64,000 nt of DNA from an uncultured Pelagibacteraceae bacterium (lineage in GTDB: Bacteria > Pseudomonadota > Alphaproteobacteria > Pelagibacterales > Pelagibacteraceae): the NCBI GenBank assembly GCA_902633185.1, contig CACPFN010000001.1, positions 1 to 64,000 on the forward strand. The letters are read 5' to 3'. Below the pieces are notes generated by a model that was not told the DNA's origin, did no database searches, and saw only the letters and a program-made list of their open reading frames with translations. The stretch's first letter is position 1, and every line of letters starts with the position of its first letter. The translations under genes and the position numbers were made by a program. Positions 24,046-41,513 of the stretch are shown piece after piece.

Positions 24046-24939
24046 TTAAACAGGTGCCTTGGTTGAACGATCAATTCCTAAAGCTTTTGCAAATGCATCA
24101 GCAGTTAAATTTATTCCAATTATTAACGAACTTAATCCTACTATTGGAGCAATTACAGACCAGTATGCAAACGACATCAATCCTCTAGCATTGGATATCA
24201 TTAAACCCCAATCAGGCGTTGGCGGACTTACACCAAAACCTAAGAATGACAATGAGCTAAATCCTAATAACATCCAAGACCATCTCATTGCTCCTTCTAC
24301 TAATATAGCGTCTCTAACATTTGGAATAATTTCATTCCAAATAATAGACATGTTGCTATGACCTCTAGCTCTGGCTGAAACTATAAAGTCTTTAGCAATA
24401 ACGTCGTGAGTAGCAGCTCTAGCAACTCTCACTATTCCTTTACCATAAAAAAAACCTAGTGCAGGAATTAAAACCTCTGTTGATGTTCCTAAAAGAGAAA
24501 CAATTAATAACATTGCAAGTATCCAAGGGATAGAAAGAAACGCATCAACAACTCTCATTACAACATCGTCAATTTTACCTCCAACTAAACCACAAAAAAT
24601 TCCAAGTAAACCTCCCCACAGAAGAGCTATAAGTGATCCAAAGAAAGTTACTGTAAGAGCTGTTCGACCTCCAAGTATTGTTCTTGTAAAAACATCTCTA
24701 CCCAAGCTATCTGTTCCAAACCAATGTTCAGCAGAAGGTGCAAGTAACATGGTATTTGGGCTAATTGCTTTATAATCGTATGGTGCAATGTAAGGACTTA
24801 TTAATGCTAAGACTACATGAAATAGTACAATTGTAAGTCCAATTAATCCAGAAGGCTTGGAGGCCATAGTTTTTAAAATCTCAAAAGCCTTTTCTAGCTT
24901 ATTTTTTTGTTTATCTTTTATAATTAAATTACTCTCCAT
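24046..24939 (-). CDS. Peptide-family ABC transporter permease (DppC-like)
   Basis: A 297-residue inner-membrane permease. It has an N-terminal helix, a DppC-type periplasmic segment (HWFGTDSLGRDVFTRTILGGR) and five further hydrophobic segments. The cytoplasmic coupling (EAA) loop is seen in DFIVSARARGHSNMSIIWNEIIPNV. It abuts the fused ATPase downstream and is one base from the DppB-like gene upstream. The substrate is set by the binding protein encoded at the operon start. Confidence 0.93.
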   Translation of the reverse strand: MESNLIIKDKQKNKLEKAFEILKTMASKPSGLIGLTIVLFHVVLALISPYIAPYDYKAISPNTMLLAPSAEHWFGTDSLGRDVFTRTILGGRTALTVTFFGSLIALLWGGLLGIFCGLVGGKIDDVVMRVVDAFLSIPWILAMLLIVSLLGTSTEVLIPALGFFYGKGIVRVARAATHDVIAKDFIVSARARGHSNMSIIWNEIIPNVRDAILVEGAMRWSWMLLGFSSLSFLGFGVSPPTPDWGLMISNARGLMSFAYWSVIAPIVGLSSLIIGINLTADAFAKALGIDRSTKAPV

Positions 24940-24940
24940 T

Positions 24941-25897
24941 TTATTTTCTTATCTGTAAACTTTTTAATCTTGGATTAAGCATTAGTGTCATTAAATCTGC
25001 TATTAAATTTATTCCCACATAGATAGATGCCAATATTATTGCTAATGCTTGAACAACAGGCAAATCTCTATTTGATATAGACTCAATTACTAGTCTGCCT
25101 AAACCTGGATAATTAAAAACAACTTCTGTAACAACAACACCACCTAACAACCAAGCAATTGTTAACGCTACTACATTTATTGCTGGTAATAATGCGTTTG
25201 GCAATACATGTCTAAATACCATTTTCCAATATGGAACACCTTTTAAAATTGCCATTTGTACATAATCACTAGCCATTACTTGAATTACACTTGAACGTAC
25301 CATTCTTGCCATGTGTGCGGTCATAATCATTGAAATTGCAACAACAGGTAAAATTATATTTGAGAGTAATTCATAAAAAGTTGCATCCGATGGTATAATC
25401 ACAATGCCTGGTAGCCAACCAAGCCAAATTGCAACAATTAAAATAAGCAAAGTAGCACTAATAAACTCCGGAATAGTCATTGAAAAAATTGTAATAGTAG
25501 AGATCATAATATCTGGAAGCTTATCTCTCCAAAGAGCAGTTATTATTCCTAATACGATTGCTAAAGGAATTCCTATAAGTATTGAAACAGAGGCTAAAAC
25601 TAAAGAGTTTTTAACTCTTGGACCAAGTACTTCATTAATTGGCATTTCACCACTTAAAGAGTAACCAAAATCACCTCGTACAACATTTGATGCCCAGTCC
25701 AAGTATCTTTCATAAGCAGGAACATCAAGACCAAGTCTTTTTATGCAAGCATCAAGAGCTGCTCCATAAGCTTCTCTTTCTAAATATGTTGTGCATGCAT
25801 CACCTGGTAAAACTTCAACACCTACAAATGTAATCAATGAAACTATAAATAAAGTGATAAGTCCTAGTCCAATTCTTTTTAAAATTAATAAAAGCAT
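24941..25897 (-). CDS. Peptide-family ABC transporter permease (DppB-like)
   Basis: A 318-residue permease with the DppB pattern: N-terminal helix (LGLITLFIVSLITFVGVEVLPGD), the RYLDWASNVVRGDFGYSLSG periplasmic segment and an EAA loop DYVQMAILKGVPYWKMVFRHVLPN. VVTEVVFNYPGLGRLVIESI is typical of the family. A short insertion with two cysteines (GDACTTYLEREAYGAALDACIKRLGL) follows the first helix, where many DppB proteins have a cysteine-free loop. A strong hairpin separates it from the binding-protein gene upstream. Confidence 0.93.
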   Translation of the reverse strand: MLLLILKRIGLGLITLFIVSLITFVGVEVLPGDACTTYLEREAYGAALDACIKRLGLDVPAYERYLDWASNVVRGDFGYSLSGEMPINEVLGPRVKNSLVLASVSILIGIPLAIVLGIITALWRDKLPDIMISTITIFSMTIPEFISATLLILIVAIWLGWLPGIVIIPSDATFYELLSNIILPVVAISMIMTAHMARMVRSSVIQVMASDYVQMAILKGVPYWKMVFRHVLPNALLPAINVVALTIAWLLGGVVVTEVVFNYPGLGRLVIESISNRDLPVVQALAIILASIYVGINLIADLMTLMLNPRLKSLQIRK

Positions 25898-25982: not shown

Positions 25983-27470
25983 TTAGTCAACTTTAACTTT
26001 ATGCCACTGTATAGAAAAGTGATCTACAGCATCAAGGTTTTTAACTTTTGATGAAGTAACTACAAGTCTAGATACGTGGTATGGGATCATTGTTCCACTT
26101 TGTTCCCATAAAGTCATTTGAGCATTTTGATATGCTTTTTTTCTTTTATTGAAATCCAGCTCACTTCTAGCATCAGCTAAATTTTTATCAAAGTCAGCAT
26201 TTTTGAAATAAGATTCATTCCATTTTGCTCCACTATGATATGCTTCATGTAAGATTGTGTCTGCTGGTCTTTGGTTCCAACGTGTCATTGAAACTGGCTT
26301 TTTCATCCAAACCTCATTCCAATAACCTTTAGATGGTACCATCTCAATATTAACTTTAATACCCGCTTTTGCAACTTGTTGCTGAACAACTTCTGCAATC
26401 GTTGGCCAAGTTGGTTCTAAAGTTGCTGGGTAAACAGTCAATTCAATTCCATTTGGAAATCCTGCTTCTCTTAGTAAATTTTTTGCTTTACTAATATTTT
26501 GAGGACAATCCATTTGTAAACGGTACTGATCAGATGGCATTACAGGTGTATCGCAAGATACAGTTGCTGCACCTCCCATAACTAGATCTACAAGTTCTTG
26601 TCTATCAACTGCTAACCTAAAAGCTTTTCTTACTTTAGGATTATCAAATGGAGCAGTATCAGTTCTCATAACCACACCTCTCCAGTTTCCAGTTGGAATT
26701 ACAGTTGTTGTAAATTTAGAATTACTATCAAAAATCTTTTTTTGATTGAAAGGAACATATCTGTTCATATCAATTTGACCTGTTAAAAGCGCCTGAATTC
26801 TTGCTTGAGCATCTGGGATAGCTATGACGTGAACTTCCGCAACCCCTGGTGCACCTTCCCAATATTCTGGGTTAGCTTTTAGAATTGTAGTTCCTTCTGG
26901 GTCAAATTTATCAACCATGAATGGTCCAGTACCAACCCCGGTTTGTCCTATAGTGTCTCCTGATCCTTCAGGTATCATTCTTAATCTGTAGTCAGTTAAT
27001 AATAACGGAAAGTCAGCAAATGAAGTTGATAACTTCATTTTAACTGTATGCTGATCAACTACCTCAATATCTTCAACTACATTTAAACTTTTTCTAACTG
27101 GAGATCCGATATCAGGATCTTTGGCTCTCATTAGAGAATATTTTACATCTGGAGCATCAAATGCTGATCCATCATGAAAATATATTCCTTTTCTTAAATT
27201 AAATGTCCATTCAGTTGCATCAGAATTAGCACTCCAATCTGTTGATAATGAAGGTGATGGAACACCGTTCATATCAGGTCTCACTAATCTATTTTGTGTT
27301 TTGATGACAACTTGAAATAAACGCCCTTTTGTTATGGCATCTAAGTTAGTATCTTTTCCAAATCCAAGATCATGTGATACTTTAAATACTCCACTTGATG
27401 CATTGGCAATAGAAAAAGATAATATCAGTGACATAAAAGTCGCTGAAAAAACTTTAAGTATGTATTTCAT
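25983..27470 (-). CDS. Peptide/nickel-family (SBP_bac_5) periplasmic binding protein
   Basis: A 495-residue exported protein with a signal peptide (MKYILKVFSATFMSLILSFSIANAS). The family-5 solute-binding fold is seen in VSHDLGFGKDTNLDAI, EWTFNLRKGIYFHDGSAFDAPDVKYSL, GTGPFMVDKFDPEGTTILKANPEYW and the NPKVRKAFRLAVDRQELVDLV helix. It captures a peptide, opine or related compound in the periplasm for the DppBC-DF-like importer. A good Shine-Dalgarno (GAGGGAA) precedes the ATG, in line with high expression. It is the first gene of the minus operon. The 141-base gap to the divergent + operon should carry both promoters. Confidence 0.92.
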   Translation of the reverse strand: MKYILKVFSATFMSLILSFSIANASSGVFKVSHDLGFGKDTNLDAITKGRLFQVVIKTQNRLVRPDMNGVPSPSLSTDWSANSDATEWTFNLRKGIYFHDGSAFDAPDVKYSLMRAKDPDIGSPVRKSLNVVEDIEVVDQHTVKMKLSTSFADFPLLLTDYRLRMIPEGSGDTIGQTGVGTGPFMVDKFDPEGTTILKANPEYWEGAPGVAEVHVIAIPDAQARIQALLTGQIDMNRYVPFNQKKIFDSNSKFTTTVIPTGNWRGVVMRTDTAPFDNPKVRKAFRLAVDRQELVDLVMGGAATVSCDTPVMPSDQYRLQMDCPQNISKAKNLLREAGFPNGIELTVYPATLEPTWPTIAEVVQQQVAKAGIKVNIEMVPSKGYWNEVWMKKPVSMTRWNQRPADTILHEAYHSGAKWNESYFKNADFDKNLADARSELDFNKRKKAYQNAQMTLWEQSGTMIPYHVSRLVVTSSKVKNLDAVDHFSIQWHKVKVD

Positions 27471-27611: not shown

Positions 27612-28835
27612 ATGCAAAACGAATTAAACAAAGTCAGATTTTCTGTAAAACCTTTAAAATCAAATGATAATAAAGTTGTTGAACTTGCTAGAACTGTAGG
27701 CATACATCCTCTAGCATATCAAGAACTTCCCTACGATCCTGAGTATTCATTTTATGCAGGAAGATTAAATCCAGAAGTGCTTTCACACGCTACTGCTGAT
27801 GAGATGTATTGGAAAGTAAGACAAGAGGTAATTTTTCGTCATACTGGTGAACATCCATATGAAATATCTGGTCCCGATGCAGAAAAACTTTTACAAAAAA
27901 TATTCACAAGAGATATCTCAAAAGTAAAAGTAGGAAGATGCTCGTACCAATTTGCTTGTTACAATGATGGAGGTATGCTGACAGATGGAGTTTTACTAAA
28001 ACTTGAAGAAAATAAATTTTGGTTTGTTCAGGCTGATGGAGATCTTTTTTCATGGTATAAAGCTCACACTGATAATCTTAATGTAAAAATTTCTGATCCA
28101 GACGTTTGGGTAAGTCAAATTCAGGGACCAAAATCTATGGATCTTTTAAAAGTTTTAAGTAAAGAGACTTTTCCTGACAATTGGAAATATTTTGATTGGA
28201 AAGAAATTACTATACTAAATGAAAAGGTAATCATAAGTAGATCGGGATTTAGTAATGAACTTGGTTGGGAAATTTATTTTAGAAAAAATAATAATATTGA
28301 AAAAGTTGGGGATTATATTCTTGAGGAAGGAAAAAAAATGGGAATGATACTCACAGGCACTCCTGGTTTCAGATGTAAAAGAATAGAATCTGGATTGTTA
28401 TCGGCTGGGCAAGACTTTAATCATGAAACAAATCCATATGATGTTGGTTTAGCTAAGTATGTCGATTTAAAAAAAAATTATTTTATTGGAAAATCAGCGT
28501 TGATGACTGCAGACAAAGAAAAAAGATGTTGGGGAATACGAGTTGAAAATGGAACAGGTTTAAAAGGAACTTACGTAAAATTTAATAATGAAATAATTGG
28601 AAAAATTACATCAAGCACTTGGTCACCTTTTCAAAAATGTGGTGTTGGAATAGTTTTAATGAATTCTACAAAACATAAACCAGGATTAATTGTGGATGTT
28701 AATTGTAATGATAATAAAATTCATAAAGGTGAGATATGCACCTTGCCAATGTATGACTTTAAAAATGAAATTGTAAGAGGTTTAAAAATTGATATTCCAA
28801 CAGGTCCTTCTCCGTGGTCAGGAATAAAAAAATAA
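27612..28835 (+). CDS. GcvT/aminomethyltransferase-family THF-dependent protein
   Basis: A 407-residue GcvT-fold protein: GEHPYEISGPDAEKLLQKIFTRD, GGMLTDGVLLKLEENKFWF, WVSQIQGPKSMDLLKVL, SRSGFSNELGWEIYF and the C-terminal RIESGLLSAGQDFNHETNPYDVGLAKYV. This fold binds tetrahydrofolate and accepts one-carbon groups from N-methyl or S-methyl compounds. An N-terminal extension of about 60 residues precedes the fold. It is the first gene of a seven-gene operon that also contains a DmdA-like paralogue, so a methylated substrate is likely. It is too divergent from GcvT, sarcosine or dimethylglycine dehydrogenase domains for me to name the substrate. Confidence 0.82.
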   Translation: MQNELNKVRFSVKPLKSNDNKVVELARTVGIHPLAYQELPYDPEYSFYAGRLNPEVLSHATADEMYWKVRQEVIFRHTGEHPYEISGPDAEKLLQKIFTRDISKVKVGRCSYQFACYNDGGMLTDGVLLKLEENKFWFVQADGDLFSWYKAHTDNLNVKISDPDVWVSQIQGPKSMDLLKVLSKETFPDNWKYFDWKEITILNEKVIISRSGFSNELGWEIYFRKNNNIEKVGDYILEEGKKMGMILTGTPGFRCKRIESGLLSAGQDFNHETNPYDVGLAKYVDLKKNYFIGKSALMTADKEKRCWGIRVENGTGLKGTYVKFNNEIIGKITSSTWSPFQKCGVGIVLMNSTKHKPGLIVDVNCNDNKIHKGEICTLPMYDFKNEIVRGLKIDIPTGPSPWSGIKK

Positions 28836-29509
28836 TAATAGCAATTGGTGGTGGTGGATTTACACATTCTTCTGATGAGGACTTGGATGAATATGTTATA
28901 AATCAAGTTAATAAATCAAATATCAATATCGGTTTTTTACCTACGGCTAGCAATGATAATCAAGAAAAGACTGATCTTTTTTATAAAAGATTTAAATCAC
29001 AAAAATTTAAATTATCTCATTTTAATCTCTGTTCAAGTGTGGAAGGTTTTAATGAATGGATGTTAAACAAAGATATAATTTATGTAGGGGGTGGCAATAC
29101 CTCTGAAATGATTAATATTTGGAAGAGAAATGATCTTATCAAAGTATTTAAAGATGCATATGAAAAAGGAATAATTCTGAGTGGAATAAGTGCAGGTGCT
29201 GTCTGTTGGTTTGATTGGATATTGTCAGACTCAGTCAATGATGAGCTAAGTCCATTAAAAGGAATAAATTTATTAGATGGGAGCTGCACTCCGCATTCTT
29301 CTGATAAAAATCGACTTCGACAATTTATTTCAGAAATTCAAGACGGAAATTTGCCAGATGGAATAGCTATTGATGATGGTGTAGCTGTGCTTTTTATTGA
29401 CGGAGTTCCTTCAGATGTTTATTCTTCGAGAATTAATCATGATGCTTATTATGTTACTAAACATGATAAGATTAGTTTAAAAACATATATAAAGAAATTA
29501 AATGGATAA
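28814..29509 (+). CDS. Peptidase E-like (family S51) protein
   Basis: A 231-residue class-I-glutamine-amidotransferase-fold hydrolase. The nucleophile serine sits in LSGISAGAVCWF (Ser126), with a YVGGGNTSEMI loop before it. This is the pattern of dipeptidase E (Asp-X dipeptides) and cyanophycinase relatives. The likely GTG start overlaps the preceding gene by 22 bases, and the end overlaps the next by 8, so it is firmly in the operon. Its substrate is unknown. A role in releasing an amino-acid moiety from an imported compound would fit the peptide-type importer encoded divergently. Confidence 0.83.
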   Translation: MVRNKKIIIAIGGGGFTHSSDEDLDEYVINQVNKSNINIGFLPTASNDNQEKTDLFYKRFKSQKFKLSHFNLCSSVEGFNEWMLNKDIIYVGGGNTSEMINIWKRNDLIKVFKDAYEKGIILSGISAGAVCWFDWILSDSVNDELSPLKGINLLDGSCTPHSSDKNRLRQFISEIQDGNLPDGIAIDDGVAVLFIDGVPSDVYSSRINHDAYYVTKHDKISLKTYIKKLNG

Positions 29510-30662
29510 TATTAAAGCCAGTAATAAAATTTTTAGCATTGAAGACGCAAAAAAACTATCGAAGAAAAGATTACCAAAGCTAGTTTATGATTTTATTGAC
29601 GGTGCATCTGGAGATGAAAAGTTATCAGAAATTAATAGTTTTGCTTTAGATCAAATACGTCTTGAGCCAAGAGTTCTAAGAAATGTAGAGGAAAGAAAAC
29701 TAAAAAAAAATATTCTTGGATTTAACTATGACTATCCTTTTGGTTTTGCCCCAATGGGTATGACAAATCTTTCATGGCCAGGTGCAGACTCAATGCTGGC
29801 AAAAGAGAGTGCAAGAAATAATATACCAACTTGTGTATCGATGGCTTCCACAACTACCTTAGAAAAAATGTATGAGTTTTCAGAAGGTCATTCATGGCTT
29901 CAACTTTATATTTTTCAGGATGAAGCTTTTGTCATGGAATTGCTCGATAGAGCAGAAAAAACTGGTTATGAAGTTGCTATACTTACTGTTGATGTTCCGG
30001 TTTTATCTAGGAGAACTAGAGATGATAAGAATGGATTTTCATATCCATTTAAAATTGGACCTAAACAATTTTTTGATTTTGCAACTCATCCAGTTTGGTC
30101 AATATCTACATTACTTAATGGAATACCAAAGCCAATGAACTACGAAACTTCAAAAAGTGGAAAAGGTATTTTTAAAAGAAAAGAAAGTAGAGGAAAAACA
30201 GATTGGGAAACTTTAAAAAGAGTAAGAAATAAATGGAAAGGCAAATTAATTGTAAAAGGTGTCATGTCATCTGATGATGCAGTTAAAATTAAAGAAATGG
30301 GCGCTGATGCTATTCAAGTTTCAAATCATGGAGGTAGACAATTAGATAGTGCCTCAGCAGCAATAAATATTCTACCTTTTATTAGAGAGGCAGTGGGAAA
30401 TAATTTTCCAATTATTTTTGATAGTGGAATAAGAAGTGGAAGCGATATTGTAAGATCATTAGCTTTAGGAGCAGATTTTTCAATGATTGGAAGACCTGTA
30501 ATGTATGCGATGGGTGCTGACGGAGCTAGCGGGCTAAGAAGAATTGTAGACATAATTAAAGAAGAAACTAGCACAACACTAGGTTTGGTTGGATTAAACG
30601 ATATTAATGAAGTTTCTTCTGATATAATTGAACAGAAACTTTTTATGAATACAACTTACTAA
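29502..30662 (+). CDS. FMN-dependent alpha-hydroxyacid oxidase/dehydrogenase (LldD-like)
   Basis: A 386-residue TIM-barrel flavoprotein. It has the N-terminal FIDGASGDEKL segment, the flavin loop FGFAPMGMTNLSWPGAD, LQLYIFQDEAF and the catalytic SNHGGRQLD with active-site His at about 276. ADFSMIGRPVMYAMGADG lies near the C-terminus. Such enzymes oxidise L-2-hydroxyacids (lactate, glycolate, mandelate) to 2-oxoacids, passing electrons to quinone or oxygen. The next gene encodes a ThDP enzyme able to act on 2-oxoacids, so the pair resembles mandelate dehydrogenase plus benzoylformate decarboxylase in logic. The substrate is unidentified. Confidence 0.88.
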   Translation: MDNIKASNKIFSIEDAKKLSKKRLPKLVYDFIDGASGDEKLSEINSFALDQIRLEPRVLRNVEERKLKKNILGFNYDYPFGFAPMGMTNLSWPGADSMLAKESARNNIPTCVSMASTTTLEKMYEFSEGHSWLQLYIFQDEAFVMELLDRAEKTGYEVAILTVDVPVLSRRTRDDKNGFSYPFKIGPKQFFDFATHPVWSISTLLNGIPKPMNYETSKSGKGIFKRKESRGKTDWETLKRVRNKWKGKLIVKGVMSSDDAVKIKEMGADAIQVSNHGGRQLDSASAAINILPFIREAVGNNFPIIFDSGIRSGSDIVRSLALGADFSMIGRPVMYAMGADGASGLRRIVDIIKEETSTTLGLVGLNDINEVSSDIIEQKLFMNTTY

Positions 30663-30663
30663 T

Positions 30664-32403
30664 ATGGAAAAAAAAATAAGAGGTGGAGCATTAATTGCAA
30701 GAGCATTAAAAGATAAAGGTATTAATAAAGTTTTTACTCTATCTGGTGGATTTTGTAATCCTGCAATTGAAGGTTTCATGGAATGTCAAATTGATGTAGT
30801 TAATTGTCCTCATGAACAGATAGCTGGACACTTAGCAGATGGACACACAAGAATTACAAGAAAACCATCTGTATGTTTAGTTGGGCCAGAAGGTTTTGCA
30901 AATGCAGTACCATCAATGATGGAAGCATGGGGAGAAAGAACACCGATAATTTATATAACTGGATCAAGTAGTTTAAAAAGACAAGGCTCAGGAGGCTTTA
31001 AAGAAATTGATGATGTTTCAATAGCTGCTCCTCTTACAAAATACAGCGCAAGCATTACAGATGGAACAAGAATTAGAGAATTTGTTGATAAAGCTTACAG
31101 AATTGCAACGAATGGATATCCTGGGGCTGTTCACCTAAGTTTACCAGTGGATATAATGTTTTCTTCATTTGAGGAAAATGTTGGACTTGAAGAAAGACCA
31201 TTTTCACATAAAGCAAAGCCAGTTGCTAAAGCATGGCCAGATCCAAATGCTCTATCAAAAATTCTTGAGCTCGCATGTAATGCAAAAAAACCTGTCATAA
31301 TTGGAGGACATGGTGTTTGGTGGTCAAACTCAGAAAAAAATTTAGAGACTGCGGGTGAAAGTTTAAATATTCCAGTTTTTAATGTGCCATACCATCAAAA
31401 ACTTTTGGGAGAAGAGGCAAATGCATATATGGGTTTAGCAGATATTCATCAATATCCACCTTCAGAATTTGCATTACATAACTCAGATTTAGTTTTAATG
31501 ATTGGCGCAAGGTTGGATAACCAAATGAATTTTGGTAACCCTCCTTTTATTCCAAAAACAACAACTTTAGTTTGTATTAACGGTTCCCATGAAGAAATTG
31601 AGTTTAACAGAGCAGCTGATCATAACCTATTATGTGATCCAGGAGTATTTTTAGATACTCTATGTAATTTAAAGAAAAATAATAAATGGAATTTAGGAAA
31701 TAGTTGGTTTCAAGATAACAAAAATAGAAAAAAAGATTGGGTGGATAAATCTTTAAATGAATTAAAAATTGAAGCGGATAAAGCCAAAAAAAATGGTGGA
31801 AAAATTCATCCGCTGCAATTAGCGTTAGATGTTCAAGACGCAATGGATGAGAAAGATTGGCTTGTAATTGATGGAGGAAATACTCATTTCTGGTCGGAGA
31901 TCGCAATAAATTTAGCTGGTGCTCAAGGAAAAAAATTGGGTGGAATTTTACATCCTGGCACATTTAGTATGCTGGGTGTTGGTGTATCATTTGCATTATC
32001 TGCAAAAAATAATAACCCTAAATCAAATGTAATTTTAATTAGTGGAGATGGTGCATTTTTATCTGGAGGCATGTCTATAGAAACTGCATTTTTTGAAAAG
32101 AAACCAATCGTTGTTGTTATTGACAATAATGGTGGCTTAGCATCAATTGGTCAACAACAAGAAAGACTGTTTGAAAGCGGAAAAAGAGTTGCAACAGACT
32201 TTAGAGATATACCTTTCCACAGTATATTTGAAGGCTTTGGTGGTCATGGAGAATTAGTAACGAAAAGAGAAGAATTGGGTCCAGCACTAAAAAGAGCTAT
32301 TGCAAGCGGTAAAACAGCTTGTGTAAATGTAAAAGCTAAACCAGTATTAAGTCCAATTGTTGCTGCTGTCGCCAGCAAGAGAGAGAAATCGTCAATAGAG
32401 TAA
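30664..32403 (+). CDS. ThDP-dependent enzyme of the acetolactate synthase/decarboxylase superfamily
   Basis: A 579-residue three-domain ThDP enzyme. The catalytic glutamate is in CPHEQIAGHLADGH (Glu51), the central domain carries KKPVIIGGHGVWW, and the ThDP/Mg motif is SGDGAFLSGGMSIETAFFEKKPIVVVIDNNGG (GDG at ~461-463, NN at ~488-489; shown in parts). It could be a 2-oxoacid decarboxylase, a carboligase or a 2-hydroxyacyl-CoA lyase. No acetolactate-synthase regulatory subunit is nearby, which argues against branched-chain synthesis. It starts 1 base after the alpha-hydroxyacid oxidase stop, so the two may work in sequence. Confidence 0.86.
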   Translation: MEKKIRGGALIARALKDKGINKVFTLSGGFCNPAIEGFMECQIDVVNCPHEQIAGHLADGHTRITRKPSVCLVGPEGFANAVPSMMEAWGERTPIIYITGSSSLKRQGSGGFKEIDDVSIAAPLTKYSASITDGTRIREFVDKAYRIATNGYPGAVHLSLPVDIMFSSFEENVGLEERPFSHKAKPVAKAWPDPNALSKILELACNAKKPVIIGGHGVWWSNSEKNLETAGESLNIPVFNVPYHQKLLGEEANAYMGLADIHQYPPSEFALHNSDLVLMIGARLDNQMNFGNPPFIPKTTTLVCINGSHEEIEFNRAADHNLLCDPGVFLDTLCNLKKNNKWNLGNSWFQDNKNRKKDWVDKSLNELKIEADKAKKNGGKIHPLQLALDVQDAMDEKDWLVIDGGNTHFWSEIAINLAGAQGKKLGGILHPGTFSMLGVGVSFALSAKNNNPKSNVILISGDGAFLSGGMSIETAFFEKKPIVVVIDNNGGLASIGQQQERLFESGKRVATDFRDIPFHSIFEGFGGHGELVTKREELGPALKRAIASGKTACVNVKAKPVLSPIVAAVASKREKSSIE

Positions 32404-32404
32404 A

Positions 32405-32740
32405 ATGGCAAAATTTAGCTCACATTTATTGAATGGTTCTAATGGAACTCATGCAAGTAACGTCAAAGTAAAGATTTATCAAATACAATCCTCAAAATTA
32501 AAAAAGCTTTTTTTGAATACAAAGACTGATGGAAATGGTAGGATTAATCAGCATTTCAATCTTAGCAAAAAAGATTGTAAATGCGATTATGAAATGATTT
32601 GTGATATTAAAAGATACTTTAAAAAGAATAAAATTGTGGGTGAAATAGTTGTAAAATTTAAAATGACTGATAATAAAAAAAATTATCACTTGCCAATAAT
32701 AATTTCTCCTAACAGCTATACAGTTTGGTGGTCAAAATAA
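32405..32740 (+). CDS. Transthyretin-like / hydroxyisourate hydrolase-family protein, degenerate C-terminus
   Basis: The 111-residue protein follows the transthyretin-like fold pattern: FSSHLLNGSNGTHASNVKVKIYQ, TKTDGNGRIN, IKRYFKK and NYHLPIIISPNSYTVWW. Hydroxyisourate hydrolases use two histidines, an arginine and the C-terminal YRGS. Here the positions matching both histidines (His7, His95) and the arginine (Arg46) are kept, but the last four residues read WWSK. No other purine-catabolism gene is in the window. A changed substrate is likely. It lies between the ThDP enzyme and DmdA-like genes with gaps of 1-3 bases. Confidence 0.75.
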   Translation: MAKFSSHLLNGSNGTHASNVKVKIYQIQSSKLKKLFLNTKTDGNGRINQHFNLSKKDCKCDYEMICDIKRYFKKNKIVGEIVVKFKMTDNKKNYHLPIIISPNSYTVWWSK

Positions 32741-32743
32741 TAT

Positions 32744-33907
32744 ATGGCTTCGTTGATACAAAGCAAAATTAGTACAAAACTAAATATGTCTAGGAGAATA
32801 AGAAGAACTCCTTACACCAAGAGAGTTGAAGAATGTGGTGTAACTGATTTTACTGTTGTAAATCATATGCTTTTACCAAAAAGATTTCAGAAATCTGTTG
32901 AGGATGATTATTGGCATTTAAATGAACATGTTCAGCTATGGGATGTTTCTTGTCAAAGACAAGTTCAAATATCAGGTCCAGACGCTAGTTTATTAGTACA
33001 AAAAATGACGCCAAGATCATTAAAAAATATGGAGACTGGAAAATGTTTTTATATTCCTATGATAGATGAAAATGCTGGAATGATAAATGATCCAGTGTTG
33101 TTAAAGTTAGATGATGATATGTTTTGGATTTCAATTGCAGACTCTGATGTATTGCTTTGGGCAAAAGGTATTGCAGTTGGTTTAAATCTAAATGTGAGCA
33201 TAACAGAACCAGATGTATATCCTCTTGCAGTACAAGGTCCAAAGTCTGAAGATTTGATGGCATCAATATTCGGAGAAGATATTAGAAAATTAAAATTTTT
33301 TAATTTTAGAATATTTGATTTTTTAGGTACTAAACAAGTTATTGCAAGGTCAGGATATAGCAAACAAGATGGATTTGAGATTTATTTTAAATGCTTTGAA
33401 GATTACTTCGACAAAAATGAAATGGGAGAAAAAATTTGGGATATAATATGGAAAGCGGGGAAAGAATTTAATATTGCTCCAGGATGCCCAAATTTAATTG
33501 ACAGAATAGAAGCAGGATTAATGTCATATGGAAATGATTTTACGAAAGAAAATAATCCATTTGAGTGCAACTTAGAAAAATATTGTAGTGACAAAAGCGA
33601 TCATGATTTCATTGGAAAAAATGCTTTAGATAATATTAAGAAACAAGGTGTAAAACAAAAATTAAAAGGAGTATTATTTGATGGTGTAGATTGTCCCCCA
33701 TGTTCAATTCCTTTTCCGCTATATTCAAAAGATAAGAAATTAATTGGTAAAATTACTTCAGGGATTTATTCTCCAAAATTCAAAAAAAATATTGGTTTAT
33801 CCATGATTTTAAATGAATTTTGTGAAATAGGGTCAGAAGTTTTAGTGCACACTCCGGATAATAAATTAAGAAAAGGAATTGTGTCCTCTTTACCATTTTC
33901 AAAATAA
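32744..33907 (+). CDS. dmdA: DMSP demethylase (DmdA)-like GcvT-family protein
   Basis: A 387-residue GcvT-fold protein that resembles SAR11 DmdA throughout as I recall that family: RRTPYTKRVEECGVTDFTVVNHMLLP near the start, HVQLWDVSCQRQVQISGPDA, LLQ/VQKMTPR, PLAVQGPKSEDLMASIFGED, ARSGYSKQDGFEIYF and CPNLIDRIEAGLMSYGNDFT. DmdA transfers a methyl group from dimethylsulfoniopropionate to tetrahydrofolate, giving methylmercaptopropionate. No dmdB, dmdC or dmdD-type CoA ligase is beside it; the neighbours are a thiolase and ThDP/FMN enzymes. It may therefore be a DmdA paralogue with another methylated substrate. Confidence 0.72.
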   Translation: MASLIQSKISTKLNMSRRIRRTPYTKRVEECGVTDFTVVNHMLLPKRFQKSVEDDYWHLNEHVQLWDVSCQRQVQISGPDASLLVQKMTPRSLKNMETGKCFYIPMIDENAGMINDPVLLKLDDDMFWISIADSDVLLWAKGIAVGLNLNVSITEPDVYPLAVQGPKSEDLMASIFGEDIRKLKFFNFRIFDFLGTKQVIARSGYSKQDGFEIYFKCFEDYFDKNEMGEKIWDIIWKAGKEFNIAPGCPNLIDRIEAGLMSYGNDFTKENNPFECNLEKYCSDKSDHDFIGKNALDNIKKQGVKQKLKGVLFDGVDCPPCSIPFPLYSKDKKLIGKITSGIYSPKFKKNIGLSMILNEFCEIGSEVLVHTPDNKLRKGIVSSLPFSK

Positions 33908-33930
33908 TAATTAGTGGGTATAAGTCTTAT

Positions 33931-35055
33931 ATGAAAAGAGCAGTTATCGCAGGATATTCAAGATCACCTTTTACAATGGCAAGAAAAGGTGAATTAATTG
34001 ATGTTAAGCCTGTAAATATGTTTGCAGAGGTTGTTAAAAATCTTGTATCTAAAACAAAAGTAAATCCTGCTCATATTGAAGATATTGTTGTTGGTTGTGC
34101 TTTCCAAGTTGGAGAGCAGAGTTTTAATATTGGGAAACTCACAACATTTTTATCTGGAATGGAAATACATACATCTGGAATGACTGTCGATAGATGGTGT
34201 GGTTCATCTATGGAAGCTATTCATGTTGCAGCAGGTAAAATAGCAATGGGCGCAGGAAAAGTTTTCGTATGTGGGGGTGTTGAAAGTATGACTAGAGTTA
34301 CAACTGGCTTTGAACCAATACCTTATCCTTACACAGATAAAGAAAATCCAAATGTTTATTTTTCAATGGGAATAACTGCTGAAAATGTTGCCAAGAGATA
34401 TAAAATTTCAAGAACTGAACAACAAGAGTTTGCAATTCAAAGTCATCAAAAAGCTAATGAAGCTGAAGTAAATGGTAAATTTAAAAATGAAATAGTTGAA
34501 ATTGCTGGTTGCACAAAAGATGGAAACATACGTCCAAAAAGTAATCAAGAAACTTTAGATGGTTTAAAACTTGCATTTGATCAAGAAGGAACTGTTACTG
34601 CAGCAACATCCTCACCTCTTACCGATGGAGCAGCAGCAACATTGATATGTGAAGAAAGTTATGCAAAAGAAAATGGATTAGAAATTTTGGGTAGAATTGT
34701 TTCAACTGGAGTTAAAGGATGTGAACCAGATGTAATGGGACTTGGACCTATAGGAGCGACTAAGAAAGCATTAGAGAGAGCAAATTTATCAATTAATGAT
34801 ATCGATATTGTAGAGATTAATGAAGCTTTTGCTTCTCAATCAATAGCATGCTTAAAAGATCTTGGTATCGATCAAAAAAAAGCTAATTTAGATGGTGGAG
34901 CTTTAGCACTGGGACACCCTCTAGGAGCAACAGGAGCTAGAATTACTGGTAAAGCTGCAGATTTGCTTAGACGTGAAAATAAGAAATATGCTTTATCTAC
35001 TCAATGTATAGGTTTAGGAATGGGTATTGCGACCATAATTGAGTCTGTTAATTGA
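33931..35055 (+). CDS. Acetyl-CoA acetyltransferase / thiolase
   Basis: A 374-residue thiolase. The acyl-enzyme cysteine lies in TVDRWCGSSMEAIHVAA, the second domain has EINEAFASQSIA, the catalytic histidine is in LALGHPLGATGARI and the C-terminal cysteine in STQCIGLGMG. It condenses or cleaves acyl-CoA units. Slightly short compared with the usual 390, as a small loop region is reduced. It is the last gene of the + operon, 23 bases after the DmdA-like gene, and meets potC head-on with no gap. It could serve ketone-body handling, for example acetoacetate from carnitine cleavage, once activated. Confidence 0.92.
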   Translation: MKRAVIAGYSRSPFTMARKGELIDVKPVNMFAEVVKNLVSKTKVNPAHIEDIVVGCAFQVGEQSFNIGKLTTFLSGMEIHTSGMTVDRWCGSSMEAIHVAAGKIAMGAGKVFVCGGVESMTRVTTGFEPIPYPYTDKENPNVYFSMGITAENVAKRYKISRTEQQEFAIQSHQKANEAEVNGKFKNEIVEIAGCTKDGNIRPKSNQETLDGLKLAFDQEGTVTAATSSPLTDGAAATLICEESYAKENGLEILGRIVSTGVKGCEPDVMGLGPIGATKKALERANLSINDIDIVEINEAFASQSIACLKDLGIDQKKANLDGGALALGHPLGATGARITGKAADLLRRENKKYALSTQCIGLGMGIATIIESVN

Positions 35056-35910
35056 TTATCTATTAATTCCTCTCAAACGTTCTGATCTTCTCCTCAATAA
35101 CTCTGCACTAATAAGTATTAAAGTAGATAAAACAATCAAACACGTAGCAACAGCTAAAATTGTTGGACTTAATTGTTCCCTCAATCCTGTCCACATTTGA
35201 ACTGGGATAGTTGTATTTTCAAGTCCTGCTAAAAATAAAACTACTACGACTTCATCAAAGGAAGTTACAAAAGCAAATAAACCACCTGATATTACACCAG
35301 GCAAAATTAATGGAAGTGTTACTTTCATAAATGTATTTACTGGATTGCTGCCTAAACTGGCTGCTGCTCTCGTCACACTATGATCAAAACCTGATAATGT
35401 TGCAGTAACTGTTATTACAACGAAAGGTGTTCCTAAAATTATATGAGCTAAAACTATTCCTGTATGAGTTGCTGCTAAACCTGCCTTTGCCATAAAAAAA
35501 AATATTGCAACACCAGATATAATAAGTGGAACTATCATAGGTGAAATCAAAGTTGCCATTATTATTCCTTTAAAAGGCATGTGTCTGCTACTCAAACCTA
35601 ATGCAGCAACTGTTCCTAAAATTACTGATCCTAAAGTTGCAAATATAGCAATAATAAAACTATTCTTTGCAGCAAGGCCCCATGGATTTTTTGTACCGTA
35701 AACCATATCTTTATACCATCTTAAGGAAAAAGCATCTGGGTCTAAATTCTTCATTCCTTCTGAAAAAACAAGAAACTCTTCTGCATTAAATGATAATGGA
35801 AATATTACAAACAAAGGTGCTATTAAAAAAATAAAAACAAAAGTACATATAGTAATGTAAAAGTAGTGCCAAATTCTATATCTAGTTTCTGTATACTTTG
35901 GTAATGCCAT
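35056..35910 (-). CDS. potC: Pot-type ABC transporter permease (PotC-like)
   Basis: An inner-membrane permease, about 284 residues from the preferred start MALPKYTETRY (35910), which lies one base after the potB stop. The track's TTG start at 35940 would overlap potB by 29 bases. The EAA loop is AAASLGSNPVNTFMKVTLPLILPG and the family segment GLFAFVTSFDEVVVVLFLAG is present. It forms the membrane channel with PotB. The importer is of the spermidine/putrescine type, but this class also carries other amines and betaine-like compounds. Confidence 0.92.
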   Translation of the reverse strand: MALPKYTETRYRIWHYFYITICTFVFIFLIAPLFVIFPLSFNAEEFLVFSEGMKNLDPDAFSLRWYKDMVYGTKNPWGLAAKNSFIIAIFATLGSVILGTVAALGLSSRHMPFKGIIMATLISPMIVPLIISGVAIFFFMAKAGLAATHTGIVLAHIILGTPFVVITVTATLSGFDHSVTRAAASLGSNPVNTFMKVTLPLILPGVISGGLFAFVTSFDEVVVVLFLAGLENTTIPVQMWTGLREQLSPTILAVATCLIVLSTLILISAELLRRRSERLRGINR

Positions 35911-35911
35911 A

Positions 35912-37174
35912 CTAACCCAACTTAATATTATCAACTCCAACTAATTTATTATAAAGCCAATAAATAACTAAAACTCCTCCAAGCAACATAAGTCCCATTG
36001 CTGAAGCAAAACTCCAATCTAATGTAGTTTTCATATGATATGCAATTTGGTTGCTAATTAAGGTTCCTGATGCTCCACCAACTAATGCGGGAGTAATATA
36101 ATATCCAATTGCTAAAATAAAAACTAAAAGACAACCTGCACCAATACCTGGTATTGTTAATGGAAAATATACTTTCCAAAAAGCTATAAAAGGTGTCCCA
36201 CCTAACGACTTACCCGCCCTCATTAAACTTGGCGAGATAGTTTTCATTACACTGTAGAGTGGTAAAACCATAAATGGTAATAAAATTTGCGTCATTGCAA
36301 CATAAGTTCCAACTTTATTGTACATCATCTCTGGCCTATTATCGTCTGATACAAGCCCTATAATTACAAAGAAATCATTAACTACTCCTTGCTGTTGAAG
36401 TAAAATCATCCAGCTAGCTGTTCTAACTAATAATGACGTCCAAAATGGAAGAAGAACACAAATCATCAATAAATTACTGTACTTCATTGGGAGAGTTGCT
36501 AGTAAATGGGCTATTGGGTAACCCATTAAAAAGCAGAATACCGTAACAAAGAAAGCAACCTCTACTGTTCTCAACCATAAAATTCTATGTATTCTTCTAT
36601 CCTCACTGACTTGAGTAATTTTGTTATCTTCATTCAAATACATATCCATAGCCTTTAAATATTTAGCTGATGTATAAGGAGGTGCAGTTCTTTTAATTGC
36701 TTGCCAGTACTCTACATTTCTCCATCTCTTATGAACCTTCATTATTTGTTCTTTAATACTTTGTGTCTCGTCAATTTTATCTCTTTTTACCTGTCTGAAT
36801 AATTTTTTTGTAATGGTGTTGAACCCATTTTTTTCTTTGTTAAGCCTTTGAGCTAATTTTCCATGTTCTTTTTTATCAACAAGAATTTTAAAATCAGATA
36901 AGAATGAAGCAAATACTTCTTCGGATGGAAGTTCTTTACCATCCCATGTTTCCATAGATTTAAATGTTTTTGGAAGCATGTTTGTAATCATTTTATCATC
37001 AATACTTCTTGTAAACATTTCTCCGATTGGAAAAATATAAGTAATAATCAAAAAAAGTAGTAGTGGAGCAACAAGTAAAAATGCTTTAATTTTATTTTTC
37101 CTTTCAGCTTTTTTTAAACTTATTTCTAAAGGAATTCCATCTGTTGTAAGTATTTGTTTTGTTTCGTTGCTCAT
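35912..37174 (-). CDS. potB: Pot-type ABC transporter permease (PotB-like) with long periplasmic insertion
   Basis: A 420-residue permease, longer than the usual 280-300. After the first helix (AFLLVAPLLLFLIITYIF, residues 31-49) there is an insertion of about 130 charged residues before the second helix (VAFFVTVFCFLMGYPIAHLL). The ending is normal, with the EAA loop AGKSLGGTPFIAFWKVYFPLTIPG. The insertion should lie in the periplasm, where it could contact the binding protein. The ATG sits only 10 bases after a strong hairpin that separates this gene from potD. Confidence 0.9.
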   Translation of the reverse strand: MSNETKQILTTDGIPLEISLKKAERKNKIKAFLLVAPLLLFLIITYIFPIGEMFTRSIDDKMITNMLPKTFKSMETWDGKELPSEEVFASFLSDFKILVDKKEHGKLAQRLNKEKNGFNTITKKLFRQVKRDKIDETQSIKEQIMKVHKRWRNVEYWQAIKRTAPPYTSAKYLKAMDMYLNEDNKITQVSEDRRIHRILWLRTVEVAFFVTVFCFLMGYPIAHLLATLPMKYSNLLMICVLLPFWTSLLVRTASWMILLQQQGVVNDFFVIIGLVSDDNRPEMMYNKVGTYVAMTQILLPFMVLPLYSVMKTISPSLMRAGKSLGGTPFIAFWKVYFPLTIPGIGAGCLLVFILAIGYYITPALVGGASGTLISNQIAYHMKTTLDWSFASAMGLMLLGGVLVIYWLYNKLVGVDNIKLG

Positions 37175-37183
37175 AAATAAAAA

Positions 37184-37204
37184 GGGCGACTTAAAAAGTC
37201 GCCC
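37184..37204 (-). terminator. Hairpin/attenuator between potD and potB
   Basis: A perfect 9-bp stem (GGGCGACTT with AAGTCGCCC, 3-base loop); on the minus strand it is followed by TTTTTATTT and then the potB ATG. It is a textbook intrinsic terminator by shape but lies inside the transport operon, so it probably limits permease expression relative to the binding protein. Confidence 0.82.
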
Positions 37205-37241
37205 TATATATATTATATTATACTAGTCTTTTATACTATTT

Positions 37242-38357
37242 TTATAGACCAGCTTTCATAGCTTCCCACTTCTCACCAAGTTCTGTGCCGTTATCAGCCC
37301 AGAAAAATGGATCAACTAAAAAGTATTTTTTAGTGTTTGCAGGAGCAGTTGGCATTTCTGGCATCATTTCAGTTTTACCATCTTTGTACCAAGGCTCATT
37401 TGCTTTGATAATTTCTAAAGATGATAATCTGTATGGAGCGTATGCAATATATTTAGCACTTCCAGCTAACATTTCAGTGTTAGTCATCATTGCTAAAGCT
37501 TTTTTAGCATTAGCTTCATCTGGTCCACCTTTAACAAGTGCGAAATATTCATAGTCAAGACCTTGTCCATCCCATACTTGTACAAGTGGTGCACCTTCAC
37601 CAACTATTGCGTTAAAAAATCTTCCATTCCAGCCAGTTGCCATTACAACTTCACCACTCATTAAAAGTTCTGGTGGTTGAGCACCTGCAGACCAGAATAC
37701 ACATCCACCATTAGGATCTGTACAAAGCTCTTTAATCTTGTTCATTGCTCTATTAACACCAGCTTCAGTTTCTAGTAATTTGTAGATCTCAGATCCACCT
37801 TTACCCATGTAAACTCCGTCACCAGCTAAAGCGATTTCTAGATTTGTAAGAGCAGATTTGTAAATAGCTCTTTTTCCTGGAAATTTTTTAGTGTTAAAGA
37901 AATCTTTTATAGTCGATGGTGTGCCGTCAACATTGTTACTGTTATAAGCATAGTTCCAAGAATATAAAATATTTCCTACTGCACATTTACTTGGCATTGG
38001 AGCAAAGAAATCTTCACTTGCAGGAGTTCCATCTGGAGCTGCAGGGAAGTCTTTGTCAAAATCGAATTCGACGAAAATTCCTTCGTCACATCCGTTGATA
38101 GTATCAAATGCGAATACATCGATAATATCCCAAGTAATTGCACCTGCTTCTTTTTGAGCTTTGATCTCAGATAATCCACCTGAATAATCTACCCAGTTGA
38201 TATCAACACCAAGAGCTTTTGCAGTTGGATCACCATACCCTAGCTTTTGAGACTCTGTATAAGCTCCACCCCAAGATGCTACTGTAACCGCAAATGCAGA
38301 TGAAGTTATTGAAAGAGCAAAAGAAAGAGCAAGTAATAATTTACTTAATTTTTTCAT
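37242..38357 (-). CDS. potD: Pot-type periplasmic binding protein (PotD-like)
   Basis: A 371-residue exported protein with a signal peptide (MKKLSKLLLALSFALSITSSAFA). The family-1 spermidine/putrescine-binding pattern is seen in VASWGGAYTESQKLGYGDPTAKALG, DIIDVFAFDTINGCDEG and a tryptophan-rich ligand cleft (FWSAGAQPPELLMSGEVVMATGWNG). The Shine-Dalgarno is near perfect (GGAGGA five bases before the ATG), suggesting high expression. The ligand is not determined by the sequence. The adjacent EutD/EutA-like genes raise the possibility of a cyclic or quaternary amine osmolyte instead of a polyamine. Confidence 0.9.
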   Translation of the reverse strand: MKKLSKLLLALSFALSITSSAFAVTVASWGGAYTESQKLGYGDPTAKALGVDINWVDYSGGLSEIKAQKEAGAITWDIIDVFAFDTINGCDEGIFVEFDFDKDFPAAPDGTPASEDFFAPMPSKCAVGNILYSWNYAYNSNNVDGTPSTIKDFFNTKKFPGKRAIYKSALTNLEIALAGDGVYMGKGGSEIYKLLETEAGVNRAMNKIKELCTDPNGGCVFWSAGAQPPELLMSGEVVMATGWNGRFFNAIVGEGAPLVQVWDGQGLDYEYFALVKGGPDEANAKKALAMMTNTEMLAGSAKYIAYAPYRLSSLEIIKANEPWYKDGKTEMMPEMPTAPANTKKYFLVDPFFWADNGTELGEKWEAMKAGL

Positions 38358-38472
38358 TTATCCTCCGTTTAAACGTTTAATATAAATTAATTTATATATG
38401 CGAAGTACAACAAAAACGAAATTCAGAGTCAACAGGCCATTTTGTTATAGGAATACTGGGATATTTAAGAAA

Positions 38473-39558
38473 TTATTTAGGATCTAGAGCTCTTGCGTCT
38501 TGACTGTTCCATCCTACTTTAATCTCATTGCCCAATTTTAAATCTAGCTCATTTGAGCTATTTGGAACTTTTAAAATAAATTCTTTATTACCTAAAAGAT
38601 CTAATCTTAATCTAGTATGATCACCATGGTAGATGACTTCTTCAATTTTTCCGGTTTGATTATTATCCATTTTATCTTTTGGATTTATTAATGCTCTCTC
38701 TGGTCTTATTGAAACTGTTGTTTTGTCACCTTTGGAATTAACTGAAATTGGATTAGCTAAAATTTCACCATTTTGTAATTTAACTTTACAAACATTTTTT
38801 GAAATGTCTGTCACTTCTCCGCCAAAAGTATTATTTTCACCTATAAACTCTGCAACAAACGAATTAACTGGCTCTTCATATAATTTATCTGGACTTGATA
38901 ATTGTTGAACCTTACCATCATTAAACACTGCAATTCTATTTGACATTGTTAATGCTTCTCCTTGATCGTGTGTAACGTAAACCACGGTAACACCAATATT
39001 TTCATGGATATGTTTTATTTCGTATTGCATACTTTCTCTTAAGTTTTTATCTAAAGCTCCAAGGGGCTCATCCATTAAAACTACTGCTGGATCAAATACG
39101 AGAGCTCTTGCAACCGCTACCCTTTGTTGTTGTCCTCCCGACAATTGTGCAGGCATCCTACTTTCAAATCCTGAAAGAGAAACCATCGACAAAGCTTTAT
39201 CTACTTTTTTATCAATCTCATCTTTTTGAACTTTTCTTACTCTTAAGGGAAATGCTAAATTTTCATAAACTGTCATATGAGGAAACAATGCATAATTTTG
39301 GAAAACCATTCCAATTCCTCTTTTGTGTGGTGGAATATTTGAAATAGGATTAGAGTCTAAATAAATTTCGCCATTAGTTGGGGTTTCAAATCCAGCTAAC
39401 ATCATTAAACAAGTTGTTTTTCCTGAACCAGATGGGCCAAGCATAGTGATGAACTCGCCCTCTGAGATATTAAGATTTAAATCTTTTACTACTAAAACTT
39501 TACCATCGTAACTTTTATCAACTTTATCGAACTTAACGAATTCTGTATTTTTAGACAT
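38473..39558 (-). CDS. potA: Pot-type ABC transporter ATPase (PotA-like)
   Basis: A 361-residue ATPase. Walker A GPSGSGKTTCLMML, Q-loop VFQNYALFPHMTVYENL, signature LSGGQQQRVAVARALV, Walker B VVLMDEPLGALD and H-loop VVYVTHDQGEAL are all present. A C-terminal TOBE domain follows (SIRPERALINP, IYHGDHTRLRLDL). It is the first gene of the minus Pot operon, ahead of potD with a 115-base gap. That order (A, D, B, C) puts the binding protein second. Confidence 0.94.
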   Translation of the reverse strand: MSKNTEFVKFDKVDKSYDGKVLVVKDLNLNISEGEFITMLGPSGSGKTTCLMMLAGFETPTNGEIYLDSNPISNIPPHKRGIGMVFQNYALFPHMTVYENLAFPLRVRKVQKDEIDKKVDKALSMVSLSGFESRMPAQLSGGQQQRVAVARALVFDPAVVLMDEPLGALDKNLRESMQYEIKHIHENIGVTVVYVTHDQGEALTMSNRIAVFNDGKVQQLSSPDKLYEEPVNSFVAEFIGENNTFGGEVTDISKNVCKVKLQNGEILANPISVNSKGDKTTVSIRPERALINPKDKMDNNQTGKIEEVIYHGDHTRLRLDLLGNKEFILKVPNSSNELDLKLGNEIKVGWNSQDARALDPK

Positions 39559-40769: not shown

Positions 40770-40772
40770 AGA

Positions 40773-41513
40773 TTAATCAAACAGTCTTCCAAATCCTTTT
40801 ACAGATTTATTTTCACCTATGTTTTCCAAAGACTCCCATATTAATGCTTGGTTACTTGAAAGAACTGGTATTCCAAGTTTATCTTCTAATTTTTGTATCA
40901 AAGGTAAAACTGGTAAAGCAGTACATGATACAAATAAAGCATCTGACTCACTTACATCTAAGTTTATAAGAACATCAAACAGATAATTTTGATCTACTTT
41001 ACCAATCTCCATGTCAGAATGAATATCAAAGTATGAATTTGAGGTGATTTCAAAACCAGACGTTTTAAAGTAATCAACAACATCATCGTTAACTTTTTTA
41101 CTATAAGGCGTGAATATAGAAAGTTTTTTAATATTTAATTTTTTCAATGCTTTCAAAGCTGCTGTGCTTGGTGTTGAAAGTTTTGCCTCAGGTTTTGCTG
41201 CTTGTATTTTATTTTTAATATTATCATATCCTGCTGCTATAGTTCCTGATGTACAAGCATATACAACACAATCTAATTTTTGCTCTGGTAAGATATCTTT
41301 TGTGACTTGAGTAATATTCTCTGACATTTTGATCAAATTCTCTTTAGTTAAAGGGTTGTAACATTCTATTCTATTTACAAAAAAATCAATTTTTTTATCT
41401 TTAATTACACTTATAAAATCTTTTTCAATCACTAGATCGGTTGCTAAAGCGATGAGCCCAATACGTGGATTTTGGTTATTTTCAAACTTTGGTTCTATTT
41501 TTTGTGATTTCAT
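40773..41513 (-). CDS. EutA-like Asp/Glu racemase-superfamily protein
   Basis: About 246 residues from MKSQKIEPK (41513), preferred over the track start MWWYIIF at 41534, which is hydrophobic and lacks conservation. Two active-site cysteines are visible in the expected places: VVYACTSGTIAAG and LFVSCTALPVLPLI. A typical IPVLSSNQALIWESL stretch follows. The family includes maleate isomerase, arylmalonate decarboxylase and EutA, an ectoine-utilisation protein. The next gene encodes a EutD/DoeA-like hydrolase, which makes EutA the best guess; its reaction in that pathway is uncertain. Confidence 0.75.
   Translation of the reverse strand: MKSQKIEPKFENNQNPRIGLIALATDLVIEKDFISVIKDKKIDFFVNRIECYNPLTKENLIKMSENITQVTKDILPEQKLDCVVYACTSGTIAAGYDNIKNKIQAAKPEAKLSTPSTAALKALKKLNIKKLSIFTPYSKKVNDDVVDYFKTSGFEITSNSYFDIHSDMEIGKVDQNYLFDVLINLDVSESDALFVSCTALPVLPLIQKLEDKLGIPVLSSNQALIWESLENIGENKSVKGFGRLFD

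Follow-up and report, generated by a model that had tools for sequence, protein, structure and literature searches.

Organisation of the locus

The DNA analysed here, referred to throughout as the window, is a stretch of 64,000 nucleotides from a SAR11 genome, that of an uncultured Pelagibacteraceae bacterium (GenBank assembly GCA_902633185.1, contig CACPFN010000001.1, positions 1 to 64,000). A seven-gene operon described at positions 27612-35055 in an earlier note made from the letters alone was borne out: seven forward-strand reading frames, all of them open, fill this interval, with spacings from g1 to g7 of -22, -8, 1, 1, 3 and 23 bases, and their Pfam families were confirmed as, in the same order, GCV_T, Peptidase_S51, FMN_dh, TPP_enzyme N/M/C, Transthyretin, GCV_T and Thiolase. 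The operon is flanked by two sets of transport genes (Table 1). Upstream and divergent, at a distance of 141 bases, lie the genes for an SBP5 solute-binding protein, DppB, DppC and a fused DppDF; downstream and convergent lies a Pot-type importer. Neither a riboswitch reaching the gathering threshold nor a tRNA was found in the window.

Table 1. Coordinates in the window of the seven operon genes and of the flanking importer genes (ABC, ATP-binding cassette; FMN, flavin mononucleotide; HACL, 2-hydroxyacyl-CoA lyase; HIUase, 5-hydroxyisourate hydrolase; OXC, oxalyl-CoA decarboxylase; ThDP, thiamine diphosphate; THF, tetrahydrofolate; aa, amino acids)
Feature	Position	Strand	Description
g1 GcvTa	27612..28835	+	407 aa; THF-type methyltransferase paralogue, DmdA/GcvT family; PF01571/PF08669
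g2 S51-family serine hydrolase	28814..29509	+	231 aa; GTG start; 22-base overlap with g1; PF03575 8e-36
g3 FMN-dependent L-2-hydroxyacid dehydrogenase, mandelate/lactate dehydrogenase type	29502..30662	+	386 aa; PF01070 7e-118
g4 ThDP-dependent enzyme, OXC/HACL/benzaldehyde-lyase branch	30664..32403	+	579 aa
g5 transthyretin/HIUase-like hydrolase, distinct subfamily	32405..32740	+	111 aa; PF00576 7e-20
g6 DmdA paralogue (DmdA2)	32744..33907	+	387 aa; NF009133 534 bits
g7 acetyl-CoA acyltransferase (thiolase)	33931..35055	+	374 aa; TIGR01930 409 bits, cut-off 240
SBP5 solute-binding protein, Dpp-type importer	25983..27470	-	PF00496
DppB	24941-25897	-	
DppC	24046-24939	-	
DppD-DppF fusion ATPase	22018-24045	-	
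Pot-type ABC importer, convergent	35056..39558	-	linked in SAR11 and one other locus (L179); less certain member

Conservation within and beyond SAR11

Persistence of this arrangement in SAR11 was assessed gene by gene in 80 Pelagibacteraceae loci, obtained by scanning named genomes for gene 4. All seven genes are present in the same order in 66 of the 80, with protein identities of about 55-100%; L089, where g3 is split between two matches and may carry a frameshift, would make a 67th if counted, and the remaining loci without the full set are mostly cut by contig ends. The Dpp and Pot importers hold their positions across the SAR11 loci at a similar level of protein identity (about 55 to 100%). 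In a sample of 77 high-quality genomes from the family, gene 1 was found at E <= 1e-60 in 15, so the island is common in SAR11 without being core. Genes for a tripartite ATP-independent periplasmic (TRAP) transporter lie next to the cluster in several SAR116-like loci (such as L198:15914-18808) and in one or more from SAR11 (such as L074:14392-16500), and its large permease at these loci is homologous to a permease in L173.

The pathway is not limited to SAR11. The quartet g3-g4-g5-g6, encoding the FMN 2-hydroxyacid dehydrogenase, the ThDP enzyme, the transthyretin-like hydrolase and the DmdA paralogue, is kept in three further alphaproteobacterial families: gene 4 occurs in 61 of 150 genomes from the order of G356, whose genomes are of 1.6 Mb (as in L133 and L158); in 12 of 298 from a large family whose genomes are of 4 Mb, probably the Rhodobacteraceae; and in 22 of 61 from a fourth family, probably SAR116. 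Nearly all of the non-SAR11 loci that were read contain the full quartet around the ThDP gene, and a phylum-wide sample yielded only one additional genome. Plasmid records gave no match to the ThDP enzyme at 1e-80, and the DmdA matches among them belong to canonical or other DmdA-like systems, with no annotated copy of the cluster. On Loktanella and Phaeobacter plasmids (L188:6995-11142, L190:6968-11066), for example, a DmdA-like gene is grouped with those for an acyl-CoA synthetase, OsmC and an enoyl-CoA hydratase, in what looks like a separate system of DmdA type; genes for OsmC and a crotonase also lie 3' of g6 in L133. A distant ThDP paralogue (34-39% identity) is found in G1298 (L183:3738-8198, L184:9047-16114) beside glucose-methanol-choline (GMC) oxidoreductases, once together with a DmdA-like gene.

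Around the quartet, gene content varies with lineage, although the Dpp importer, an S51 hydrolase and a second demethylase are its customary companions. SAR116-like loci have Dpp-SBP5 genes running divergently from an S51-MttB pair, followed by a LysR gene and then by the quartet, and their DppB, DppC and DppDF show 55-82% identity to the window importer. At L237 the genes S51-MttB-FMN-ThDP-TTR-DmdA (TTR, transthyretin-like) lie on a single strand, the same layout as in SAR11 except that MttB stands where GcvTa would, and the operon of the G356 order reads SBP5-PF02574-GcvTa-FMN-ThDP-TTR-DmdA-OsmC-crotonase. Dpp-SBP5 genes are found next to the cluster in other lineages too, and the Dpp importer, on which the earlier note is silent, is part of the system. 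Most loci of the third family consist of the quartet with no S51, Dpp or second demethylase gene within ~10 kb. The thiolase g7 is absent from the core cluster of the non-SAR11 lineages and is a SAR11-only addition; the CoA-linked step with which the earlier note had ended the pathway is confined to SAR11.

Other families also adjoin the quartet outside SAR11. They include 2-oxoacid/2-hydroxyacid enzymes of the PanE and Ldh_2 types, an FAD-type (flavin adenine dinucleotide) dehydrogenase, and a short-chain dehydrogenase/reductase that replaces the FMN enzyme, and because these are redox families of 2-hydroxy and 2-oxo acids they strengthen the view that a 2-hydroxy acid is processed. Some neighbours differ by locus and were not used as a basis for interpretation: a Cys/Met-type pyridoxal phosphate (PLP) enzyme near the quartet in L179, carnitine 3-dehydrogenase and a beta-keto acid cleavage enzyme (BKACE) next to g6 in L176, and HutF near the quartet in L181.

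The scattering in related genomes that the earlier note had said would speak against its operon was not seen, and the shared gene order in SAR11, together with the quartet in other families, supports its proposal that the products act together. Chance clustering was rejected in view of the cross-family synteny. That genes of several pathways were merely packed side by side by genome streamlining might be argued from the compactness of SAR11 genomes and from the limitation of the thiolase and the Pot importer to particular lineages, but it is barely credible when the order of the quartet is kept in unrelated families with 4 Mb genomes.

Two probable demethylases that are not equivalent

The earlier note had spoken of two GcvT-type proteins, and both g1 and g6 do carry GCV_T domains, but g6 is not a generic GcvT. 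It scores 534.4 bits on NF009133, the curated model for the demethylase of dimethylsulfoniopropionate (DMSP), well over the cut-off of 410, and its best PDB match is 3tfh. The g1 protein reaches 204 bits on the DMSP-demethylase model and 140.9 bits on the GcvT model PRK00389 (cut-off 300); it lies under both the DmdA and the GcvT cut-offs and passes no NCBIfam cut-off. A tree of 35 sequences, in which confidence is limited by the quick method and some long branches, places all g6 proteins in one group (Shimodaira-Hasegawa approximate likelihood ratio test, SH-aLRT, 94) beside the canonical DmdA of SAR11 and Phaeobacter, with the Marivivens DmdA from a dmdABCD operon falling outside, and it makes GcvTa a clade of its own (SH-aLRT 99). 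The two proteins cannot be equated: g6 is part of the conserved core, and g1 stands where other lineages have MttB.

Val32 and Gln63 are present in all 47 of the g6 sequences compared, at positions where DMSP-type enzymes have Tyr32 and Glu63; glutamine at position 63 is shared by one other relative. The equivalents of the THF-binding residues are kept, Glu204 as Glu in 47/47 and Tyr206 as Tyr in 46/47. To judge by these residues, g6 looks like DmdA at its THF end. A tryptophan has been linked to DMSP specificity (PMC7487153). The same position is tyrosine in g6 and likewise in the Phaeobacter protein whose gene neighbours dmdD and an AMP-binding gene, and Trp197 was for that reason rejected as a marker of DMSP specificity.

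It could be supposed that g6 just duplicates the DMSP-demethylase function and that the operon is an expanded DMSP pathway: g6 passes the cut-off of the DMSP-demethylase model and nests in the DmdA radiation, and its tyrosine does not exclude DMSP. We regard this as improbable, because the same genome already has a canonical DmdA (575 bits) beside AMP-binding (DmdB-like) and acyl-CoA dehydrogenase (DmdC-like) genes, the Val32/Gln63 pair is fixed in g6, and the FMN, ThDP and transthyretin-like steps are not needed for DMSP demethylation. The operon resembles the DMSP pathway (DmdA-DmdB-DmdC-DmdD) in having a DmdA paralogue that presumably passes a methyl group to THF; unlike that pathway it has no DmdB, DmdC or DmdD of its own, the dmdABC-like set of this genome being separate, and it combines the g6 signature with FMN, ThDP and transthyretin-like partners.

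The nature of the second demethylase follows lineage. It is GcvTa in SAR11, GcvTa together with a PF02574 protein in the G356 order, and MttB in the two others, where an MttB-superfamily gene occurs in the cluster of SAR116-like and of some roseobacter-like genomes. The S51 and MttB genes are directly adjacent in 11 SAR116-like loci (gaps of -38 to +42 bases), as are S51 and GcvTa in SAR11, and not one locus among all those tallied holds MttB and GcvTa together. The same division is seen in whole genomes: MttB (PF06253) is absent from 9/9 SAR11 and G356-order genomes and present in 4-9 copies each in 6/6 others, and B12-binding domains are split in the same way, save for single matches in two SAR11 genomes. 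No corrinoid protein was recognised in the loci retrieved. Pelagibacteraceae have been reported to lack MtgC, and the several pfam06253 genes of marine bacteria may serve other methylated compounds (PMC12478193); the non-pyrrolysine MttB proteins studied to date demethylate specific quaternary amines (PMC8604678). From the mutually exclusive occurrence, the parallel split of MttB and B12-binding domains and the agreement with the literature, we infer that GcvTa substitutes for MttB, apparently as a replacement, independent of cobalamin, for a quaternary-amine demethylase. The clusters of SAR116-like and some roseobacter-like genomes share an MttB-superfamily gene with the known cobalamin-dependent systems (MtgB/MtgC/MtgD; MtpB, MtcB, MtyB), whereas SAR11 has the THF-type GcvTa and no MttB, and the known pathways have no counterpart of the quartet. 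As a separate observation, MsrA and a beta-lactamase-family protein are encoded in the window between two genes of the PF02574 homocysteine S-methyltransferase family (43424-46983), which are 29% identical to each other.

The remaining enzymes and the importers

In g2 the GxSAGA serine and a distal histidine can be seen, and the protein lies far under the cyanophycinase and PepE cut-offs. The g3 protein, which retains the catalytic Lys, His and Arg and the FMN_dh domain, has lactate oxidase and mandelate dehydrogenase as its nearest relatives, the latter being among its best PDB matches; most members have Phe at the position equivalent to glycolate oxidase Tyr24. The g4 protein retains the catalytic Glu52 and the GDG...NN motif, but reaches only 238 bits against the HACL cut-off of 600 and falls short of the curated cut-offs for oxalyl-CoA decarboxylase and 2-hydroxyacyl-CoA lyase. 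The residue after GANT is Arg in the aligned oxalyl-CoA and 2-hydroxyacyl-CoA enzymes and Glu in the window g4 and its aligned orthologues, which weakly disfavours a CoA thioester as its substrate. Together g3 and g4 recall the mandelate pathway, in which FMN-dependent (S)-mandelate dehydrogenase and ThDP-dependent benzoylformate decarboxylase lead from 2-hydroxyacid to 2-oxoacid to aldehyde; the operon differs in that g4 is nearer to oxalyl-CoA decarboxylase, 2-hydroxyacyl-CoA lyase and benzaldehyde lyase, and in the addition of demethylases and a hydrolase.

The g5 protein belongs to the transthyretin fold family and keeps the active-site His, Arg and His of HIUase, although its score on the HIUase model TIGR02962 (72.6 bits) is below the cut-off of 87.45. 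Its motif reads SHxLN..G[TN]HA ... YHxP...YSxWxS. Nearly all members have GTHA or GNHA where HIUases show GxP, and the aligned members end in WxS in place of YRGS, the C-terminal motif of HIUase. Unlike HIUase genes, g5 has no purine catabolic genes alongside it in the loci examined.

The best PDB matches of the SBP5 protein are YliB, a heme-binding protein, an unnamed binding protein and AgaA, which as homologues would suit a peptide- or opine-like ligand, with none named. Upstream of the Pot importer genes and on the same strand, an M24 creatinase/prolidase-family gene and an arylmalonate decarboxylase family gene occupy 39597-41534.

A peptide-type importer and an S51 hydrolase would be suited to an amino-acid conjugate, and one could envisage a methoxylated conjugate such as a mycosporine-like amino acid, which would be O-demethylated and its cyclic 1,2-diketone opened by the ThDP enzyme in the manner of IolD. 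The O-demethylases LigM and DesA are indeed GcvT relatives and are matched weakly here. We nevertheless consider this very improbable: LigM and DesA are far more distant from the demethylases of the operon than DmdA is, MttB suggests quaternary amines, and mycosporine cores bear a single methoxy group.

A proposed catabolic pathway

Starting from the observed gene content, linkage, conservation, alternative second demethylases and retained catalytic residues, we infer a set of reactions, their order and a class of substrate. On the best reading, the operon serves the uptake and breakdown of an amino-acid-like methylated compound (quaternary or sulfonium) that either contains a 2-hydroxy acid or gives rise to one. 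The demethylation, 2-hydroxyacid oxidation and ThDP-dependent step deduced in the earlier note are preserved in this reading, and the redox neighbours of the quartet agree. In the proposed scheme, the Dpp/SBP5 importer would take up an amino-acid- or peptide-like compound that bears methyl groups in quaternary ammonium or sulfonium form, and the S51 hydrolase would cleave the amide or peptide conjugate that contains it. GcvTa, elsewhere replaced by MttB or joined by the PF02574 methyltransferase, would remove one methyl group, and DmdA2 would pass another to THF for one-carbon oxidation by SAR11. The transthyretin-like g5 may then open a lactone or lactam ring next to a hydroxyl group, giving a 2-hydroxy acid that g3 would convert into the 2-oxo acid, with electrons passing to the respiratory chain; g4 would decarboxylate or cleave this product, and in SAR11 alone the thiolase g7 might finish a CoA-bound product. 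That SAR11 has in this operon its own, cobalamin-free version of a catabolic island common to several marine alphaproteobacterial families, acting on a methylated amino-acid-like onium substrate, is in our judgement an evenly balanced proposition.

Several considerations count against this scheme. The relatives of DmdA are sulfonium demethylases and MttB points to quaternary ammonium compounds, so the two demethylases may not share one molecule; the S51 hydrolase, the Dpp importer and the second demethylase may be accessory, given their absence near most third-family quartets; and the hydrolase step and the ThDP role are assigned through family resemblance only, both g4 and g5 failing the curated cut-offs of their relatives.

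A purely sulfonium pathway has been weighed for 4-dimethylsulfonio-2-hydroxybutyrate (DMSHB), the single candidate substrate that would use most of the steps and the neatest, though we think it unlikely to be the right one. DmdA2 would yield 4-methylthio-2-hydroxybutyrate, the FMN enzyme the keto acid of methionine, and the ThDP enzyme methional and thence methylthiopropionate, while g5 would hydrolyse the alpha-hydroxy-butyrolactone arising by spontaneous loss of dimethyl sulfide. All four core chemistries would thus be used by one substrate; g6 sits among DMSP demethylases in the tree; and a PF02574 gene, the OsmC and crotonase pair and a Cys/Met-type PLP enzyme adjoin the core elsewhere. 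Against this, MttB, S51, the peptide-type importer and the carnitine dehydrogenase and BKACE of L176 are left unexplained, and DMSHB is familiar chiefly as an intermediate of biosynthesis; we rate this pathway as a minority possibility. Gonyol, for which the degradation pathway is not known (PMC12911362), was rejected on account of its 3-hydroxyl group, which is unsuited to a 2-hydroxyacid dehydrogenase, though the enzymes encoded in L176 would suit it. The headgroup of the betaine lipid diacylglyceryltrimethylhomoserine (DGTS) and ergothioneine were weighed on chemical grounds and set aside, the evidence not being decisive; a search of the betaine-lipid literature returned nothing on this gene set. 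Nor was any paper found here that describes the set, in keeping with the earlier note, which knew of no such pathway; one may exist elsewhere.

Implications

SAR11 bacteria and their relatives dominate heterotrophy in the surface ocean, living largely on small methylated compounds. An importer and enzymes common to four marine alphaproteobacterial families mark a nutrient not yet named. It is possible, if on balance doubtful, that they represent a new pathway, present throughout the ocean, for an abundant methylated metabolite; in it a hydrolase of the transthyretin family would have a new function, and the work of a cobalamin-dependent quaternary-amine demethylase would be done by an enzyme that depends on THF. 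Since g6 proteins score as DMSP demethylases on the curated model, ocean surveys of dmdA may be counting an enzyme that acts on a different compound. The alternation of MttB and GcvTa suggests a route by which B12-free lineages may avoid a cobalamin-dependent step, and the set is directly testable, since it is present in large genomes that are complete and belong to lineages with cultured members.

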